Shown here one piece after another: positions 5,274-59,346 of a DNA stretch of 64,000 bases. Source of the DNA: Gautieria morchelliformis (taxonomy: Eukaryota > Basidiomycota > Agaricomycetes > Gomphales > Gomphaceae); the NCBI GenBank assembly GCA_015179125.1, contig WHVA01000239.1:1-64000 (forward strand). The letters are read 5' to 3'. Under the pieces are notes generated by a model. That model did no database searches. It was not told the DNA's origin and saw only the letters and a list, made by a program, of their open reading frames with translations. The position numbers and the translations under genes are program-made. Position 1 is the stretch's first letter. Each line of letters opens with the position of its first letter.

Positions 5274-6062
5274 GAGGGCACAAAAGCGTTTGGCGGAGCA
5301 GCAAGTTGAATGGGGGAACACAAAGTTCAATTGTTTATAAGGCATCCACATTTGTGGTTGCCACTCGATAGGCACTGGAGTGGACACGAGGAGTCACGTG
5401 ATTCGATACAGTGCGTGTGCAGTCCCACACGAACCATAGGCTCGGGGCGGGTGCGCTGTAGAGAAAGGTAGAGAGTCATGAGCGTATGAGCAGCTGACAG
5501 ATCCTCAGCGGTCTCGTGGTATATACGGCGGTCTCTATGATGATAACGAAGACACCATTCGTATGTTCTGGAAGGTGCATCTTTCATTTGCCTTGACTGT
5601 GGTCACGTCTTACCCACGTTGACAGCAGCCAACTCCTTTGATCACGAGCAGCGCTGCGGACTACTGAAGTTTTGTGATGTTCAAGGAGCTGAACCCGAAG
5701 TTCTGTATCCATGACTCTAGCAGGGTTAAGCAACGTCTGCCCACATCCAGCACTTGCGTAGATCTACCAAAGGTGTGCTATTCTTGGCACTTCGTAGCGT
5801 GTCTAATCTAATGTCTGGCATGCCGCTAAATTGTATAGACGTATATCTTCGACTCAAACCTCGATTATTCTTAGTAGCCTCCGGTGGAACACGTATTATG
5901 CAATCATATTCTCTCCGATCCAGAGCAAGCTAGCATGGCTTCCAGCGATGATGATGATGCTGCTCTTCCACCTACCCTTTAGTAAGTAGTCGATAGATTC
6001 TATTTTCCTACATTTTATTGGGACGTTGGGAGGATCGGCGGCTCCCTCGGGGCAGCCACGTA
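5274..6062. other. Intergenic, nothing supported
   Basis: An open frame on the minus strand at 5327-5587 lies just upstream of the alpha-kinase start and could be 5' leader or an extra exon, but it has no recognisable motif. Otherwise I see no coding, RNA or repeat signal. Confidence 0.3.
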
Positions 6063-6414
6063 CTAATGACAGGCAAATATCTGGGTAGGTAGCCTGAAGC
6101 CTCGACGCTGATAATCTTTTGACTGCGATAGTAATAGACTCATGTGTCCAAGCTATACGTGTTCCGCTCCAGCTACACGAGGATGCATACTCAGTTATAG
6201 AACAAAGCTCTTGAATTCTGAAAGAATGGCAAAGAAAGTACACACACACCTCTGCATCGAGCTCTTTCCGCACTCGGTCCTCCTCGTCAGCCTTGATCAA
6301 CAGATGGTTGTCGTCGAGGTCTGGGATGATAAAGTGCTGTGTCTCGTCCATGTTGACAAGGAGCTGCTTGACGGCTGGGTCGCTATATAAGTAATTCCGC
6401 AAACAAACAGTCAT
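6063..6414 (-). CDS. tfb5: TFB5-like subunit of transcription/repair factor TFIIH
   Basis: The exon at 6250-6382 (minus strand) encodes DPAVKQLLVNMDE, then FIIPDLDDNHLLIKADE, closely following the small TFIIH subunit TFB5/GTF2H5 (usually about 70 residues), which stabilises TFIIH in nucleotide excision repair and transcription. A canonical acceptor (TATAG) precedes the exon and a donor (GTGTGTG) follows it; a last exon from 6152 would end at 6063-6065. The first coding exon is not clear: the family normally starts a few residues before the CDP/SDP motif, and no good ATG exon is seen upstream. The ATG at 6414 would read through the presumed intron without a stop. The gene is either functional with an exon I missed or a copy that lost its start. 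Confidence 0.55.
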
Positions 6415-49199: not shown

Positions 49200-52100
49200 C
49201 CTTCGCCCATCCTACACGCGCCGCCACCACGCACACGGGGAAACGCAGGAGCGGGGGGACGCACGCGTGCGTGTACAGCGCGTTTGCGAGCGTCGTGAGG
49301 GTGAAGAGGAAGGAGTCCCCCTGATGTAGCGTCGTGGGCGCGGGGTTTGCCAGCGCGGGGGATGGTTCCTGGGGCCGCGCTTTTCCCTGCTCGAAGACGG
49401 TGTCGGCAGCAAGGGCGAGGAGAAGCGTCTCGCAGCGTCTTCCAGCCAATCTGCCGTAAATGCGCTTCATCCTCCACGCTCTGCCGCGTCTGCTCCTCGC
49501 TCAGCCTGGCAGGGTAAGAAGTTATGTTTGGCACGAGGCCGCTCGTCTGCATATTTCTCGTGTCATCCATATTCGATAGACCAAGCGCGGGTACTGTGGC
49601 AGACACAGCGCGGTGATGATGAGGAGACGGCCGGCGTGTGGATATCTCTTCGGCAACGGCCATGCGACAGTCAGCTGCAGGATCTGGTAACGAGACTCGG
49701 TCTATGGATGGCGCATAGGCCGACGCCGTATTAGAAGGCGCTACGGTGATGGTTCGCATACTATTCTGTGAGTTCTGCGTGGTAAGAGATCGCTGGGAAT
49801 AGGCCATGCTTGTCCCACGATGACCAGATAACACTGGCACTGGCACCTGACCGGGCTGTTCATGTTTCTGATTCGACGCTTGTGAGAGTTTAGAAGGGGA
49901 GATGCGCGCGGCAGATTCAGATGAAGAGGGTGAGGCCGGGGACGGCGGCGAGCGAGACTCGTCGACGTATCGGTGTCATAGCCGCTGACACTGCCTTCTT
50001 CGTCACGGTCATCGGGAGAATCTTCACGCGGCGCAGGAACCTTCAACAAGAGACGGCGAGACGGCGTTGGAGCACAGGGCAGTTTGGCTACGGCGGACGA
50101 CGAGGCCTGCGGTCCTCTTGTGAGCCAGCCATGTCGTGGGTGAGACTAGTCTGCGCGGGTGCTGACGCCTCAGATCCACTGCTCGAGTCTGAGTCGTCTA
50201 GAGCGCCTTCGCCAACATGGGCATGCTGAAAGGCCACGGGTTGTTCATTGACAGACAGATCTCCAACGGTGCTGGGGGTCGATATCGAGGCCCGACGCAT
50301 GGCGAGGCGGTGTGCAGGAGGAAGGACGGGAAGAGCGGTGGGCACGGCGCGATACCGTGCCCAACTTGGTGGAGAATGACATGGATGTATCGTGCGACGA
50401 ATTCGGGGAGAAGGGACGTGAGAGACGGGAGGAAAGCGAACTGGATTTCGAGCGGGGGGATGGCGACGAGGAGGAAGGCGTGCTTTTTGACGTCTGATCA
50501 GCTGTCGTCGGGTAGGATAACGGGCTTGTTTTTATGGGATGCGTGTCAATGCGTTTACTCCCCGATGTAACCGTAGCGGGGGCGGTATGGCTATTGAAAA
50601 GGTCGCGGCCACGGAGGGAAGAAGCTGACACAGATTTGGGAGATAGCTGGCTCGGCGCCTCTATATGCGACGACGGCTTCAAGGAGTATTCAGAAGTCGG
50701 TGACGTATCTTCCAAGTCCACAAGCTGGGACAGGAGCAGCAGCCACGTCTGAGCAGCATGGAACTGTCCAGCCTCCCTTGCTCGCTGTAAACTCGTCAAA
50801 CCCCGTGAAGAGTGTGAAACATAAGGACCTACATACCTCCGCGTTAATCTCGCATACCCTCAGTCTGTCTCCATTGAAGACATACGATTTTGCCAGGCGT
50901 TCGAAGGCCGAGTGGCCAAAAAGAGGAATGTCTGCGACGCCAAGGGTTTGTTGATAGGGCACATAAGCAGGATCACTCGTTGCTTTGGGGGGGAGGCATA
51001 GCTCTTGCAGCGTGTCCACACCGTATGGGCTGCTAATGAGAGAGATAAACATCGATATCTATAAGCTCACACATCATCACATGGCAGTTCGACGACTGGC
51101 TGGGTGTTGGCGACAGACGCGAGACTGCCGTGCAGTCCAGGACATGGCCACTCTTGGAGTGGCGTAGCCCGGAGGTCGTGCTGTGCAAACGTGCCGCTGA
51201 CGTGTTGCGCCCACAGTTTGTGCGAGCCGGCAAAGGCGATGGCTGCCTTGCAAGTTTGCACACGAACACAACTGAATATGTTCACCGCGTACCGGTGATG
51301 CCGCCCTCCGCGTCATCCAGAGCCCACTTACCGATCCAAGCACGACGTATGTCCCAAATCTCGACGGTCTCGCTCTCAGACTCGTTGTTAGACACGATCT
51401 GTACACTATTACCATTGAATAACGACCAAAAACGACAGAGGAATAAGCTCAAATACACACAGCAACCTCGCAATCGTAGCCCGGTCGCCAACACGCACCG
51501 GGAAGGGCGTGTGAAGCGTACGGAAGGACCTCGGGCCCATATTCTTATTCAGTAGCATTGCGTGGAGATCGCGCGGGAATGGAAGCCCCTGGCGGCAAGC
51601 AGAGGTCCCAAACCTGCAACGCGTGTGAGACCAAACTGTCCGGTGCTGATTAGTACAGGCGCAAATACCTTCACTTGGCGATCCATCCCACTCGTTACGA
51701 ACCACCCCAAGCCTGTCTCTTTCATACTGGCCAACCGCTACTCCATTGATAGTACGGACGATGAGTGCGCGAGCGTGATTCGTTCCAGAGGGAGTGCTCT
51801 ATTGCGGAGGTCCCATCTACAGCTTCAATGATGAACACGACGTGGACGATGGTACGATTGAATCCACCCACCGCAGAATATTACCGCTCTCCAGACCAGT
51901 TCAGACAGTCATGGGATTTGAGGGAACCGGAGATAGAGCTAGAGCGCGGATCCCCGTGGGATGGCACACTTTTATAATGAAAGATGGCGGGCTCCGGAGG
52001 TCCTACAGCGCGAAGCAGGTCATGATACTGAGAGCTTGGCAGAGGGCAAAACGTTACCCATAAGCGTAGGTGCCCGTCCTGCGAGCCATTAGCAAAGAAG

Positions 52101-52600
52101 TAGGGCAGGAATGGAGAGATAGCTAGCTTATTGACTGTGCGTTTGTGTTCCTTTATCCTCGTTTCTGGTTGTGTTAATGTGAGTACGCCTCTGGGTTACG
52201 CATGGAACCCACGCGCACGCACCATACTTGGCCCCCGACTTGTTAACATCTCAATAAATGATCTCTCCGTTCCTCGCACTAGTCACAGTCTTGTTGTCAA
52301 ACGCTTCGTGCGTGTCACTGCGCTGGGACGCGTCACAGGCTGATGAAGAGTGAAACACTCACTTCCGCGTGCCCACACATCGGTCGGAGCACTGTCAATC
52401 TTCAGCCCGGAACCCCTCCACGCTCTGGTCCCAATTTAGATGCTCTCACCGCCTGAATAGTGCATACTGTGGCATCCGTCGAGCTGCCGCTAGAAATCCG
52501 CCTAATGTGGGGACCCTGGGGTCGAGATGGCGACTTCCGCGCGCGAATGGGGTCAGTTATGCGTAGAATTCGAAGTACTACATAGCGAGGTCATAGCAGC
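49200..52600 (-). pseudogene. WDR24/RTC1-like (SEA/GATOR2 complex) gene, probably broken
   Basis: The minus strand carries, in order: VLRILRITDP near 52570, NGSQDGHLRLW near 52070, GWFVTSGMDRQVK then WDLCLPPGAS near 51700-51600, VEIWDIRRAWIGKWAL near 51350, and the conserved block YVPYQQTLGVADIPLFGHSA, FERLAKSYVFNGDRLRVCEI and HAAQTWLLLLSQL near 50980-50730. This is the WD40 propeller and the following helical part of WDR24/RTC1, a TORC1 regulator at the vacuole. Splice sites are still good in places (intron at about 50780-50835). The frame changes several times in the Ser/Pro-rich linker (50400-49800), pieces of the propeller are missing and the C-terminal RING-like part is not found. Its last part overlaps the inverted duplication. 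I consider it a recent pseudogene, but a missed splice pattern is possible. Confidence 0.55.
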
Positions 52601-52933: not shown

Positions 52934-55900
52934 ATGAACAACGTTGAGGGCGACGATGAGGACAACGTTGAAGGCAACGTGACAGCACCGTAGGTCCACG
53001 ATCACTTCTCTAGTGAGCCAACTGTTCACTGCATCCTGAAGTATTCCTGTAGGAATCAAAGTTGCTGGAAAGACTATTTCGTTTGCGGTGCCTATTGCAT
53101 ACCGACTCTACGCGATGGACAACAGACCTGAAATGCGATCACCTTCCCAATGTCGGACTGTTCTGCAAACGTCCTGGTAGCTACTACGTAAAACTCTTTG
53201 TCGATAAGGATGTCAAGAAAACTGCGGTAGCTGCGAGAGGCAATACTGCCTCGTGGAATGAGACACTCTATTTGTGTGTTTAATTCCAGTGTTATCTTCA
53301 CGTAGATCTTAAATCCATGCCCAGCGATCACTTGAATGGCGGTTCCGTATTAGAAATCAATGTCTACGGGCACCATATCTTTACACGTGATTACTACATA
53401 GGTGGCGTGAGGGAGAGGATTGAGTCGCTGCTTGCGGAGGGAGAAACTGCAGGTCAGTCTTTTTCGCTCATCGACGGAATGCACGCGTAATCATCGAACA
53501 CACCAGCCGTTCCTCGCAAACTGCAAAAATCCGATAAGGCAGGGAACATGCACGAGGTTCAGACTGTCGTAGAGTTCACCGTTTCGTCTCTCGCGGCGCC
53601 CGACGAGGCGCTGGACGACGAGTTAAACGAAACAGTCAGCGGAACGAGAGTGGTCGATAATATGAACCCTCCTCCCCTGCTTAATGGTGCAAGGAATGTA
53701 GTTGACGGCGCCACTTCTACCACCGATAATGTCATCCCGATAACCTCGGCTTGGGGCCCCCTCTTGGACAATGTCAAGCTGTTCACCGAGATCGTAGATA
53801 AGGCCTCAGAGGTATAGTTCAAACGCCGGGGGTCTCCCAGGTCATCCGATTGACACGGTGTGCTTTGATTCTAGATTCATCCTTATGCGAAAGCGGCATG
53901 GTCTATCCTGTCTCTTGTACCCAAGGTATGTCTGACGTCCACCAATCGGATAGATATAACTGACATCTGGGGTTGACTCTATTTAGATGATCATTGCTCA
54001 GATGGACCGGGACGATAGCATCCGTGGCCTTGCAAAAATTATTGGGGACACATATGCATTCGTCCATCTGGCAGAGCCGTTGAATAAAATTGAATCGCAC
54101 AAGTCAATTATCTTAGCGTTGGAGCAGCAGACGTTAGAGTGCAGCTACTTTGTCCGCGCCTACGCAAAAACAAAAGATTTTGGTATGTTGGACCCACTGT
54201 CAGGGGGTCATAGCAGATGACCATCATTCAGGGAAAAGAACCGCGAAAAATCTAGTGTCGGATGTCGACAGCAAGGTCCAACTATACCGGGAATCTTTCG
54301 ACACACTCAAGTTGGAGTTGCAACGACTTGGCGTGATTCATACTGAAATCATGGTACAACGTGTTGAAAGCGTTGTACAACGTGTTGAAATCACTGTACT
54401 ACGTGTTCTGAATGTTGTCGGCGAAATCGGCGAGTTTTCTGATTTTGCGGCCTTTGCCCAGGCTAATACACTTTGCAACCAGCCGGGGAAGTTCAACTTA
54501 ATGACATGCCCTACGCAAATGGAGCTGGTTTCGATCCTAATAAAGGATGTCTACCGGGTACTCGGGAGAAGGTTATTGCGGAGATATGGGATTGGGTACA
54601 CCAGGATAGCGACGACACCCCCCGGATATTTTTATTGAACGACGTTGCGGGTGCCGGCAAGTCTGCGATAGCTCATGAGGTCGCTAAACGATTTGACATG
54701 CTCAAACGTCTCGGATCTTCCTATTGTTTTGACCGCGCTCGTCAGGCCGAACGCGCCCCCAGGAATCTCTTTAGCACAATTGCTCGCGGTCTGGCTGATC
54801 TGGATCCAGAACGCAAGGCAGCTTTATGGGAAGTGATTCGGGAGAACCGAGAACTTCGTACCACATTGGTGCCTAGTGTGCAGTTCAAGAGGTTCATTCT
54901 AGATCCCGCCAAGGACTTAACCACCGTCGGACCCACGGTGATCGTCATTGATGCAATAGATGAGAGCGGAGACCGGGAATCTCGCCGGGCTCTGTTGTCT
55001 GTTCTTGGCAAGGAAGCCGCAGAACTGCCGTCCAATCTCCGTGTTCTAATCACTTCCCGCGCCGAAGATGACATCCTGGACGCCCTTCGTGGGAAGACGC
55101 ACGTCCTTTCCAGGTCCTTAAAGGATATTGACCCGAACCCTGCCGAAGCCGTCACACCCTTTGTGGAAGACCAATTACGTGACATTAAGGCCCTCGAGAA
55201 GAAATGGCCGAACAAAGATTGGTGTCGATTATTAGTCGAGAAATCCGAAGGTCACTTTCAATGGGCGTCCACTGCTTGCCGTTTTGTCAAAGGAGATGGG
55301 AAGCGTGGTCACAATCCTGTTAAGCAACTGGAGGCGGTTTTAGACAAGAAACTCACTGGAATGGATAACTTGTATCTCGGTATCCTCACGCAGATATTCG
55401 GGGATAGCAACGACTTGACGGACTATTTCAAGGATCGCTTTCCCTTGGTGATGGGCTGCATGTTGAGTGCCAAAGAGCCCCTCTTGATGTCTGCCCTGCA
55501 GAAGCTATGCAACGAAGATGAGTCGGGTACTGAGGTTGATGATATAGTTGGACCCATGGGCGCTCTTTTGAGCCTCCCTACACAAGAATCTGACCCAATT
55601 CGTCTGCTGCACACGTCTTTTCGTGACTTCTTGACAGATCGCAAGCGGAGTGGATCATACTACATCGACACATCTTTACACCAGGACCGCCTTGCGCGCT
55701 CATCCTTGCGCGTGATGAAGGATGAACTTTGCTTCAACATTTGTCAGCTTGAAACTTCACATCTGCGCAACGACGACGTTGTCGACTTGGAGACACGGAC
55801 CAAGAACTATATATCCTCCCAGCTTTCATACGCTTGCCGTTTTTGGGCAGACCATGTTTGCGCCACCGCCTTTGCGCCGGGAGTAGGTGAAAACGTCAGG

Positions 55901-57456
55901 GAGTTTTTCAAGACTAATCTACTCTACTGGCTAGAAGTTTTGAGTTTGATCAAGAAGGTATTCGATGCATCAGCAGCGCTGTCGTCAATAATGGACTGGA
56001 GTGAGGTGAGTGCCCAAGTTGTTTTGAGCTCCGACGTGAGTCTAATAAACTTCAGGATAATGACATTACAGCATTCGTAACGGATACCCGCAATTTTGTA
56101 GGTGCGTTTGGGAATGTAATCTCTCAAAGTGCTCCCCATCTCTATTTGTCGGCACTCCCATTTGCACCTGAGAGGTCGAAAGTATGCGAGACTTACCTAC
56201 CACAATTTCCACGACTACTCCGCGTCGAGACCGGGAAAGCGACGACGTGGCTACCTATTCAAACCGTTCTGGTAGGCCACACGGACTTTGTCAAGTCGGT
56301 GGCATTTTCGCAGGATGGCAAGCGCATCGTCTCCGGGTCTTATGACCACACGATCCGTGTGTGGAATGCAGACACCGGGGCGCTCATTTCAGCACCATTC
56401 GAAGGCCACACCAGCTACGTCGCCTCGGTGGCATTCTCGCAGGACGGCAAGCGCATCGTCTCCGGGTCTTATGACAAGACGATCCGTGTGTGGAATGCAG
56501 ACACCGGGGAGGCCATTTCCGCACCATTCGAAGGCCACACCCACGTTGTCACGTCGGTGGCGTTCTCGCACGACGGCAAGCGCATCGTCTCCGGGTCTTA
56601 TGACAAGACGATCCGTGTGTGGAACGCAGACACCGGGGAGATGATATCAGCACCACTCGAAGGCCACACCAGCTACGTCGCGTCGGTGGCGTTCTCGCAG
56701 GACAGCAAGCACATCGTGTCCGGGTCTAATGACAAGAAGATCCGTGTGTGGAATGCAGACACCGGGGAGATCATTTCAGCACCATTCGAAGGCCACACTG
56801 ACTGTGTCACGTCAGTGGCATTTTCGCATGACCGCAAGCGCATCGTCTCCGGGTCTCATGACAAGACGATCCGTGTGTGGAATGCAGACACGGGGGAGGT
56901 GATTTCAGCACCATTCGAAGGCCACACCCACGTTGTCACGTCGGTGGCGTTCTCGCACGACGGCAAGCGCATCGTCTCCGGGTCTGCTGACAACACGATC
57001 CGTGTGTGGAATGCAGACACCGGGGAGGTCATTTCAGCACCATTCGAAGGCCACACCGGCCCGGTCATGTCGGTGGCGTTCTCGCAGGACGGCAACCGCA
57101 TTATCTCCGGGTCTCATGACCTGACGATCCGCGTCTGGAATGCAGACACCGGGGAGGTCATTTCAGCACCATTCGAAGGCCACACCTACTGGGTCACGTC
57201 GGTGGCTTTCTCGCATGACGGCAAGAGCATCGTCTCCGGGTCTGATGACACCACGATCTGTGTATGGAATGCAGACACCGGGCAGGCCATTTCAGCACCA
57301 TTCGAAGGCCACACTGACTGGGTCACATCGGTGGCGTTTTCACAGGATGGCAAGCGCATCGTCTCTGGGTCTCGTGACAAGACGATCCGTGTGTGGAATG
57401 TGGAAGTCCCCACCGTGGGTTCGGGGCCACTCGCAGGTCAAGAAGATAGTCAGTAG
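52934..57456 (+). CDS. NLR-type receptor: C2 - NACHT - nine WD40 repeats
   Basis: A STAND NTPase of the fungal NLR class. Exons 53507-53811, 53875-53925, 53987-54182, 54232-54402, 54483-56005 and 56056-57456 join in one frame across canonical introns of 63, 61, 49, 80 and 50 bases: 1215 residues and a stop. Upstream exons add a C2-like domain (YYVKLFVDKDVKKTAV, ASWNETLYL, VLEINVYGHHIFTRDYYIG). The NACHT part has the entry motif KGCLPGTREKV, Walker A AGAGKSAIAHEVA, Walker B VIVIDAIDES, sensor VLITSRAED and the winged-helix-like LLHTSFRDFLTDRKRSG. WD40 repeats occupy 56275-57435. An in-frame TAA at 53281-53283 inside the C2 domain needs a very short (about 30-base) intron or is a real break; the first exon (ATG 52934) and its GTGACA donor are also uncertain. 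Expected role: cytosolic sensing in non-self recognition leading to a cell-death response, by analogy with Podospora HET-E/HET-D. Confidence 0.85.
56275..57435 (+). repeat. Nine tandem 129-bp WD40 units of high identity
   Basis: Each unit encodes 43 residues, beginning GHT and ending near SAPFE. Units start at 56275 and every 129 bp to 57307; the ninth diverges after VWNVE at the protein end. The units are nearly identical at the DNA level (shared GGCAAGCGCATCGTCTCCGG), apart from a few codons that vary from unit to unit. Confidence 0.97.
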
Positions 57457-59346
57457 CTGTCACCTTGATTTGTCTTATCATGGTGGCATATGCTGATATT
57501 CTTTGAACAGCCAAGTGTACTGGCTTTCAAAATGACTCACGGCTAAAAAATGGCTGGTTACTCAACTCATCCTCAGAACTTTTATTCTGGGTTCCATACT
57601 GGTCTCAGGCAGGTTTGTGGCGGCCGGCGAATACCGCTGTTATTGCGAAGGGGTTCACAAAACTTGATCTCAGCCGATTTGAGCATGGGACTTCATGGAT
57701 GCAATGCAGAAAGGCCGTGTGAGTTTCCCAGGGAAGAGACTCATTGATGCATAGATCTTGCATCTCTTGCTATCATATTGGTTTGACTTCCCATATTATA
57801 CCCTCCAATAGTCTGTCCTGCCAGATCAGGAAAAGGATTAGGACGCTAAAATAGTAGCTATGCATAAGTGTATGTGTGAACTATACTATTCTCTGTGGAT
57901 AGATACTGTCTGCGCTGTATATACTGCCTATAACGCACTATATAGGGTATACCACCTATGGGTGTTATGACCATGCCAATCCTGCCTTCTGATACTCAGT
58001 TTTGCTTCTTTCCAACATTGTTCCCCCCTGCCACTGCCCCCGCCCCGGCCCCACCCCTTGTTATATCTGTTGCCCAGACCCTTTGGACTTGACTCACAAT
58101 ACAGCAAGACCCTATGTCCAAAACATCAGGGGCCCGGTTTGTTTTGTTGTCAAATAGACTTCTATTCCTCTTGTTCTTTTTCCTGTTATTATTGACTCTA
58201 CCCTGCAACTTTGTAGTTCTTGTTCCAGATTAGATACTTACTCCATGTCTTACCTGACTCCTGCTGGCAGTGGAATATGCTTAGTACTTCCACATTACAT
58301 GTTGCTCCAGCTCTTTGTTTAAAACCCACTCATTATTGCATTCTATTCTGTGATCAGATAATTGACTTCAATACTTGACTCCTTCACATCATCTCCTGTT
58401 CTCAGCACAGTGATATACATTGCAGCTGTTGTCCTTTTAGATCCAAACTACGGGATTCTCAATATGTAACAATGGGATGATATATACAATATATACCATC
58501 CTAGATCCAGTATACCATAGATACCTGTATATCAGCCTAAGAGATCATGCGCAACCTATGATGTGGAAAACCCACTTCTAATGGTTTCTCTGAGTTTAAG
58601 TAACTACTATTAGTAGTGGGCCTCACACATGATTGCCGGCAACTGTAAGGGCAACTCCCCAAGACAGCAGAAATCATGCAGCCAGGCAGAGCACAATCCA
58701 AAGATCAATATATGACTACACAGGCAGCCTGTCCACTTGTGCAAGGTTCAAGCAGGAGTTCGGCCTAGCACAGCACTGCAGTCACTTGTGCCCAGGTGGA
58801 AAATATTTTGACCGAGCCTGGCCTGCGCAATCCCCACTTGAGTTGAGCACTGCGCCAGTCTCTCCTTTGTTCAGACGCCGGTTTGTGTCCAGGACAAATG
58901 GTCTCACCCAGCGCAGCTCAGCTCCTTGATCCCCTTCTATTAATAATGTTGTTTCCCCCCAAATATAGTTACCAAAATATATTTGTATTTATCATATCAT
59001 AATACAGATCACGTGACATTTGAACAAGTTCTGGTGATCTGCAGTCGCATATGCTAAATAACACACTTAAACACAATCACCGCCAACACCTTGCAGGAGC
59101 CTGCCATGGTGTGATCAGGTCAGTGCAAGACAAATTGGTAGCCTGACTGCATGTACCATGCCAGGGCCTAAGCCTGTAGCTGCTGCCACTGCCTGGGCGG
59201 CATGGGAGGTGATGTGTCCCTGAATGGCAGCATCATTAGGTGTGTCCCTCAGCAGCAGCACAATAGACCATGGCGCCAGAAGCAGTACACAGCGGCTACA
59301 GTGGGAGCTACATCCACTACAGTGAAACATCCAGACTGGTACAGTG
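57457..59346. other. About 1.9 kb without a supported gene
   Basis: Presumed 3' region of the NLR followed by sequence with TATAC/ATATA-rich stretches (about 57900-58520) and a C-rich run near 58026-58060. No coding domain, repeat shared within the window or RNA gene was recognised. Confidence 0.35.

Follow-up and report, generated by a model that had tools for sequence, protein, structure and literature searches.

An intact-looking C2-NACHT-WD40 receptor gene of Gautieria morchelliformis belongs to a large family with variable WD40 sensors

The 64,000-nucleotide stretch of Gautieria morchelliformis DNA analyzed here (assembly GCA_015179125.1, contig WHVA01000239.1, positions 1 to 64,000; hereafter the window) carries a long gene for a NOD-like receptor (NLR) amid repeats and broken frames. 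A first-pass annotation, made from the letters alone, read it as one gene that selection had kept in a decaying transposon graveyard, which raises the question of whether the gene is a lone survivor or part of something larger. We found at least 39 further copies of its NACHT stretch in the genome, 83–98% identical, and the single-survivor idea was rejected on this ground. The gene is very probably an intact-looking non-self recognition NLR, a signal transduction ATPase with numerous domains (STAND NTPase), from a large family with a fast-diversifying sensor and a putatively membrane-directed N-terminus.

The annotated domain order was recovered in profile searches. The joined N-terminal exons matched C2 (PF00168; E 2e-9, 38.1 bits against a cut-off of 22; residues 24–109 of the model), exon 9 matched the NACHT-type profile NPHP3_N (PF24883; E 6.8e-22, 78.8 bits, cut-off 24.8), and exon 10 contained nine Pfam WD40 stretches, in agreement with the nine units first proposed. 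The Walker B (VIVIDAIDE) and sensor (VLITSR) motifs were both present in exon 9, as annotated, while the winged-helix-like motif was weakly supported, the TANC1 winged-helix profile (PF25521) scoring 14.3 bits, under its cut-off of 27. No HET domain was matched in the Pfam scan of the gene. Exons 5–8, the middle region, had no confident Pfam match, showing weak similarity to unrelated or unknown families (best E 0.0062). A single-sequence structure model of exon 10 matched WD40 propellers in the PDB; its predicted local distance difference test score (pLDDT) was mostly >75 in the repeat part and <50 in the first 68 residues. The best PDB match by sequence was 2ymu, a highly repetitive WD40 propeller, and APAF-1 (3sfz, 3shf) stood lower in the list. 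APAF-1 likewise couples an NTPase switch to a WD40 sensor; it differs in having an NB-ARC NTPase and a CARD effector, and exon 9 had no PDB sequence match at E 0.1. For exon 9, a structure model based on ten sequences reached a mean pLDDT of 43.7, too low for a structure search.

Splice signals and an alignment of the family predict 11 exons at 52934–57722 on the plus strand, encoding 1396 residues without a stop. This model replaces the earlier one of six exons and 1215 residues ending at 57456. Exon 9 was open for 507 codons, whereas the other five frames there carried 13–32 stops; in 2000 base shuffles, open runs reached 232 at most. Usable splice sites were found at the nine introns tested. 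For the alignment, 20 relatives drawn from the 39 further NACHT-region matches listed were compared with 52.8–56.3 kb of the window; four of them (L010–L013) were without the 5' part, and the other 16 were used to compare exon lengths. Across exons 1–9, the difference in length from the window was divisible by three in 130 of 144 cases, while intron lengths also varied by one or two bases, and the 11-exon model rests on this difference together with the splice signals.

To describe the family, we searched the source assembly (122 Mb, 1113 contigs) with a 601-base NACHT stretch of exon 9. At least 40 places, the window included, were 83–100% identical, a lower bound since 40 of 238 first-look candidates were scored. 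The NPHP3_N profile gave at least 154 matches (150 of 585 candidates scored), and the C2 profile gave 25 (all 86 candidates scored), including the window and the copy on contig C588. This last count is an undercount because introns split the C2 domain, and most of the 16 relatives that keep C2 were not among the matches. In four of the 20 relatives (L017, L021, L023, and L027), the splice sites were usable and the frame stayed open from the ATG to the end of exon 9; L027 had a GC donor. L019 was stop-free with one damaged splice site, and the 15 others had stops or missing parts. The closest copy by NACHT DNA, L009, was 98% identical over the 601-base query and had a broken frame in exon 9.

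Compared with each of the 20 relatives, exon 9 of the window had ratios of nonsynonymous to synonymous substitution rates (dN/dS) of 0.33–0.51, and the C2 region had ratios of 0.29–0.73 against the 16 relatives that keep it; part of this divergence may have accumulated in decayed copies. The open frame and the exon 9 ratios fit past purifying selection, so far in line with the first-pass view that selection had kept the gene. With a large family in the genome and four of 20 relatives open through exon 9, the survival of one local gene is not the story. Homology to the nearest copy, on C588, extended over ~48.7–57.9 kb of the window and was discontinuous beyond it in the parts of C588 examined. 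As a separate observation, L011, L012, and L013 lacked the start as well as some or all of C2, and L011 and L012 had an upstream sequence in common that was unlike that of the other copies, which suggests that an already truncated gene was duplicated.

The sensor end was examined in WD40 arrays from 13 of 21 loci. With the divergent L014 left out and units of odd length dropped, 12 arrays provided 131 43-codon units, and the 115 canonical units among them were retained. The eight canonical units of the window had a mean pairwise identity of 0.807 (0.721–0.907) in amino acids and 0.873 in bases, and all nine units were 0.74–0.93 identical to their own consensus. Repeat-unit identity in high-conservation NLRs is given as >85% (PMC4986451) or as ~80–100% (PMC12222747); on average the window reached the looser figure, and as measured it fell short of the stricter one.

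In HET-D and HET-E of Podospora, codons 7, 9, 25, and 27 were reported to be under diversifying selection, in pairs flanking the conserved codons 8 and 26 (Paoletti et al., PMC1805685). Anchored on V6 and D24, they correspond to unit positions 5, 7, 23, and 25 here; the set was fixed by that paper, and its alignment to our units was made after the variable columns were known. By entropy, these positions ranked 8th among 123410 four-position sets in the 115 family units and 11th in the eight canonical units of the window. They showed an excess of amino-acid differences, with nonsynonymous to synonymous ratios (pN/pS) of 1.50 in the family and 1.37 in the window against 0.41 and 0.40 elsewhere, as simple pairwise counts uncorrected for shared ancestry and unit exchange. 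Tested singly, nine of 11 arrays had pN > pS at these positions. No two of the eight canonical window units had the same residues at all four positions, and 87 combinations occurred among the 115 units of the family. Unit positions 4, 13, and 37 were strongly variable too.

Whole units also appear to come and go. L021 (on C821) and L023 (on C823) were 99.3% identical over 5813 bases, yet had 14 and 6 WD40 units, respectively, numbers that presuppose correct assembly; the two are alleles or a recent duplication. Arrays of this kind are not recovered dependably in assemblies from short reads (PMC12222747). Only two of 109 distinct 129-base units were found at more than one locus, both in this pair.

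By analogy with known NLRs, the propeller would be the sensor, its surface binding a non-self partner and changing fast through point changes and through gain or loss of whole units. Ligand binding would then trigger nucleotide exchange and oligomerization of the NACHT NTPase, acting as an ADP/ATP switch. The N-terminal half, C2 plus the helical middle region, would be the effector end, most likely directed to a membrane by C2, and its action would probably lead to cell death or to another defence response.

Several points weigh against this interpretation, besides the uncorrected pairwise counts and the reliance on assembly mentioned above. The NACHT profile itself (PF05729) scored 14.7 bits on exon 9, against a cut-off of 26.7. 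The Walker A motif, first annotated as intact, was present and read DVAGAGKS, with Asp for the first residue, which is usually Gly or Ala. The P-loop was recovered by our script in 22 of 28 scanned loci and missed in six; 21 of the 22 motifs, counting that of the window, begin with Asp, and that of L037 begins with Gly. Since 20 of the 21 other loci also have Asp, this residue is, as far as these sequences go, a family trait and not damage specific to the window copy. The Goodbye profile (PF17109) matched the middle region in none of eight family members; a genome search with it was empty, and its control was also silent. For eight of the 25 C2 matches, an NPHP3_N match or a NACHT stretch of this family lay no more than ~2 kb away; the C2 matches alone do not show a large C2 subfamily. 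On the sensor side, two of the 11 arrays had pN below pS (0.492/0.539 in L016, 0.307/0.314 in L023), and no 129-base unit was common to clearly different loci, leaving exchange between distant loci unsupported. In the gene model, the 8-base exon 2 was deduced indirectly and its donor is weak.

A further point is the state of the relatives. Up to exon 9, 16 of 20, L009 among them, were disrupted by stops, lacked parts or had one splice site damaged. With so many copies damaged, the window copy could itself be a recent pseudogene, or an unexpressed member that has no stops yet, in a family that is functional as a whole. Its first donor, GTAGGT, was shared only with L014, while 10 of the 16 relatives keeping that end had GTAAGT, and its exon 11 deviates at residues that all eight recovered relatives share. 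Set against this, the splice sites tested were usable, the 1396 codons were free of stops and the two long exons were fully open, and we consider a recent loss of function rather unlikely. The C2-like stretch could also be a family relic that does not bind membranes, given that acidic residues appear sparse where the calcium-binding loops of classical C2 domains would lie. Calcium-independent C2 domains exist, the profile score was above its cut-off, and 13 of the 16 relatives with the two C2 exons preserved a frame-keeping length in both; we regard a relic as improbable. More weight is due to the possibility that the receptor senses microbes, viruses or altered self proteins instead of conspecific individuals, which we regard as less probable than not but serious: mycorrhizal and endophytic fungi are among the NLR-richest species, and immune roles are discussed (PMC10197012). 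In Podospora, the genes that share this sensor pattern function in heterokaryon incompatibility (PMC1805685), and no result here indicates the ligand. We retain the reading of an intact-looking non-self recognition NLR.

The features of the gene are listed in the table below. The ATG of exon 1 was present in 17 of the 20 relatives, one of which (L010) is non-homologous at that place, and for 14 of the 16 relatives that keep the 5' end, the change in exon 1 length was divisible by three. The least certain part of the predicted model is the probable micro-exon 2, which was placed because it joins exons 1 and 3 in frame and because one-base changes in five relatives then fall into an intron; in three relatives it had 17 bases. 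An exon 2 starting at 53053 in the C2 frame, or at 53073, was rejected, because the former makes no in-frame join with exon 1 and because one-base length changes occur within 53073–53125 in L019, L025, L026, L027, and L028. Once these changes were counted as intron, L019 and L027 were stop-free through exon 9. A one-base difference in a T-run at ~54.44 kb had been considered as a frameshift of the group of the window copy; it was assigned to intron 8 because both versions fail to read through to the NACHT frame and intron signals are present there. This intron had 79 or 80 bases in the 20 relatives, and L038, which reads through at this place in a 78-base version, was interpreted as a chance case. 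Exon 11, which lies past 57456, was recovered by pattern in eight of the 20 relatives.

Two further observations concern the exons and introns. The 21-base repeats at 54354–54407 in exon 8 encode seven-residue, VQRVESV-like units, two of which (42 bases) were missing in 13 of the 20 relatives with the frame kept. Intron 5 of the otherwise open copy L027 contained an insertion of ~800 bases.

Table 1. Predicted features of the C2-NACHT-WD40 gene in the window
Feature	Positions	Strand	Basis and remarks
Exon 1	52934..52989	+	Start codon; 3' end in phase 2 (CC/GTAGGT)
Probable 8-base micro-exon 2	53053..53060	+	Inferred; donor GTTGCT, weak
Exon 3, first half of C2 domain	53126..53273	+	Pfam C2; preceded by branch-like site and CAG
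Exon 4, second half of C2 domain	53325..53452	+	Alignment, Pfam
Exon 5, linker plus first part of the helical middle region	53507..53811	+	Alignment
Exon 6, middle region	53875..53925	+	Alignment
Exon 7, middle region; Goodbye-like bundle possible, unconfirmed	53987..54182	+	Alignment
Exon 8, middle region, with 21-base repeats at its end (7-residue units)	54232..54402	+	Alignment
Intron 8	54403..54482	+	80 bases; GCTAATAC branch-like site
Exon 9, NACHT-type NTPase (DVAGAGKS, VIVIDAIDE, VLITSR)	54483..56005	+	NPHP3_N match, motifs, open frame
Exon 10, WD40 array	56056..57448	+	WD40 matches, units, structure model
Nine 43-codon WD40 units	56275..57435	+	Tandem Repeats Finder, period 129
Exon 11, conserved C-terminal end (GWLLNSSSELLFWVPYW...)	57511..57722	+	Pattern match in relatives

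The surroundings of the gene are rich in repeats, as the term transposon graveyard had implied, which is nevertheless overstated. A minus-strand frame at 5899–6414 strongly matched the TFIIH subunit Tfb5 (E 1.4e-13), so that ordinary gene sequence is present in the window as well. Frames at 26.9–29.6 kb matched a CCHC knuckle and a retroviral SH3-type domain and are presumably copia-type remains. Directly upstream of the gene, 52.0–52.9 kb was a multi-copy repeat (44 matched rows, ~39 other places), with several copies per contig on some contigs; on C821, C823, C588, and C804 it lay close to a member of this NLR family. A minus-strand frame at 51881–52195 had a weak WD40 match. Downstream, at 60.6–61.2 kb, there was a dispersed repeat, for which a first look across the genome gave 3709 candidates, 40 of them scored. 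Ten of 31 fetched NLR loci matched the window at 61 kb, and a link between NLR copies and this repeat was set aside since, with so many candidates, this is about chance level. Outside the gene, 30 frames were scanned with Pfam, taken from the 59 of at least 110 residues plus one shorter; 24 had no match at E 0.01, and weak matches to alpha-kinase and membralin were seen among the window frames.

Because the C2 NLRs of Agaricomycetes and the unit instability of Podospora are both published, the gene is of an already known kind and is a further example of a described architecture. C2 is listed as one of twelve N-terminal classes of fungal NLRs, found in a few basidiomycetes only and lipid-binding, and C2-mediated membrane targeting has been suggested for basidiomycete NLRs (PMC4986451, 2014). 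Many Agaricomycete NLRs are described with a C2 plus Goodbye-like N-terminus (PMC9815663, 2022). As far as these descriptions go, the gene resembles Agaricomycete C2 NLRs in its N-terminal C2, long middle region, NACHT-type NTPase, and WD40 array, and its family differs from the double-domain type in a middle region with no Goodbye match; the double-domain label is still likely to apply. It resembles the HNWD genes of Podospora anserina (HET-D, HET-E, and HET-R; PMC1805685, PMC2873952, PMC12222747) in combining NACHT with near-alike WD40 units, in unit-number differences (an instability established in PMC2873952), in the same four diversifying positions, and in decayed sister genes. Unlike these genes, it has C2 instead of HET at its N-terminus, and more copies were found here. 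Only mildly unusual are the P-loop Asp, for which earlier reports were not searched, and the size of the repertoire relative to the figures in PMC10197012, where the mean per basidiomycete genome is 83 NLRs and the record stands at 602.

The known picture of fungal NLRs is unchanged by this family. A broader proposal, which we put forward only tentatively and regard as doubtful in its entirety, is that the NLR repertoire of this genome is among the larger fungal ones and includes an Asp-P-loop subfamily, whose sensors diversify at the positions of ascomycete allorecognition genes and in which the number of units can differ by more than half between near-identical copies. If this is true, the subfamily would be a second, independently expanded natural system for how propeller sensors acquire new specificities. 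How immune receptors acquire new targets can be studied well in fungal NLRs whose sensors change fast, and the many copies at several stages of decay, together with a near-identical pair that differs widely in unit number, provide useful comparative material.

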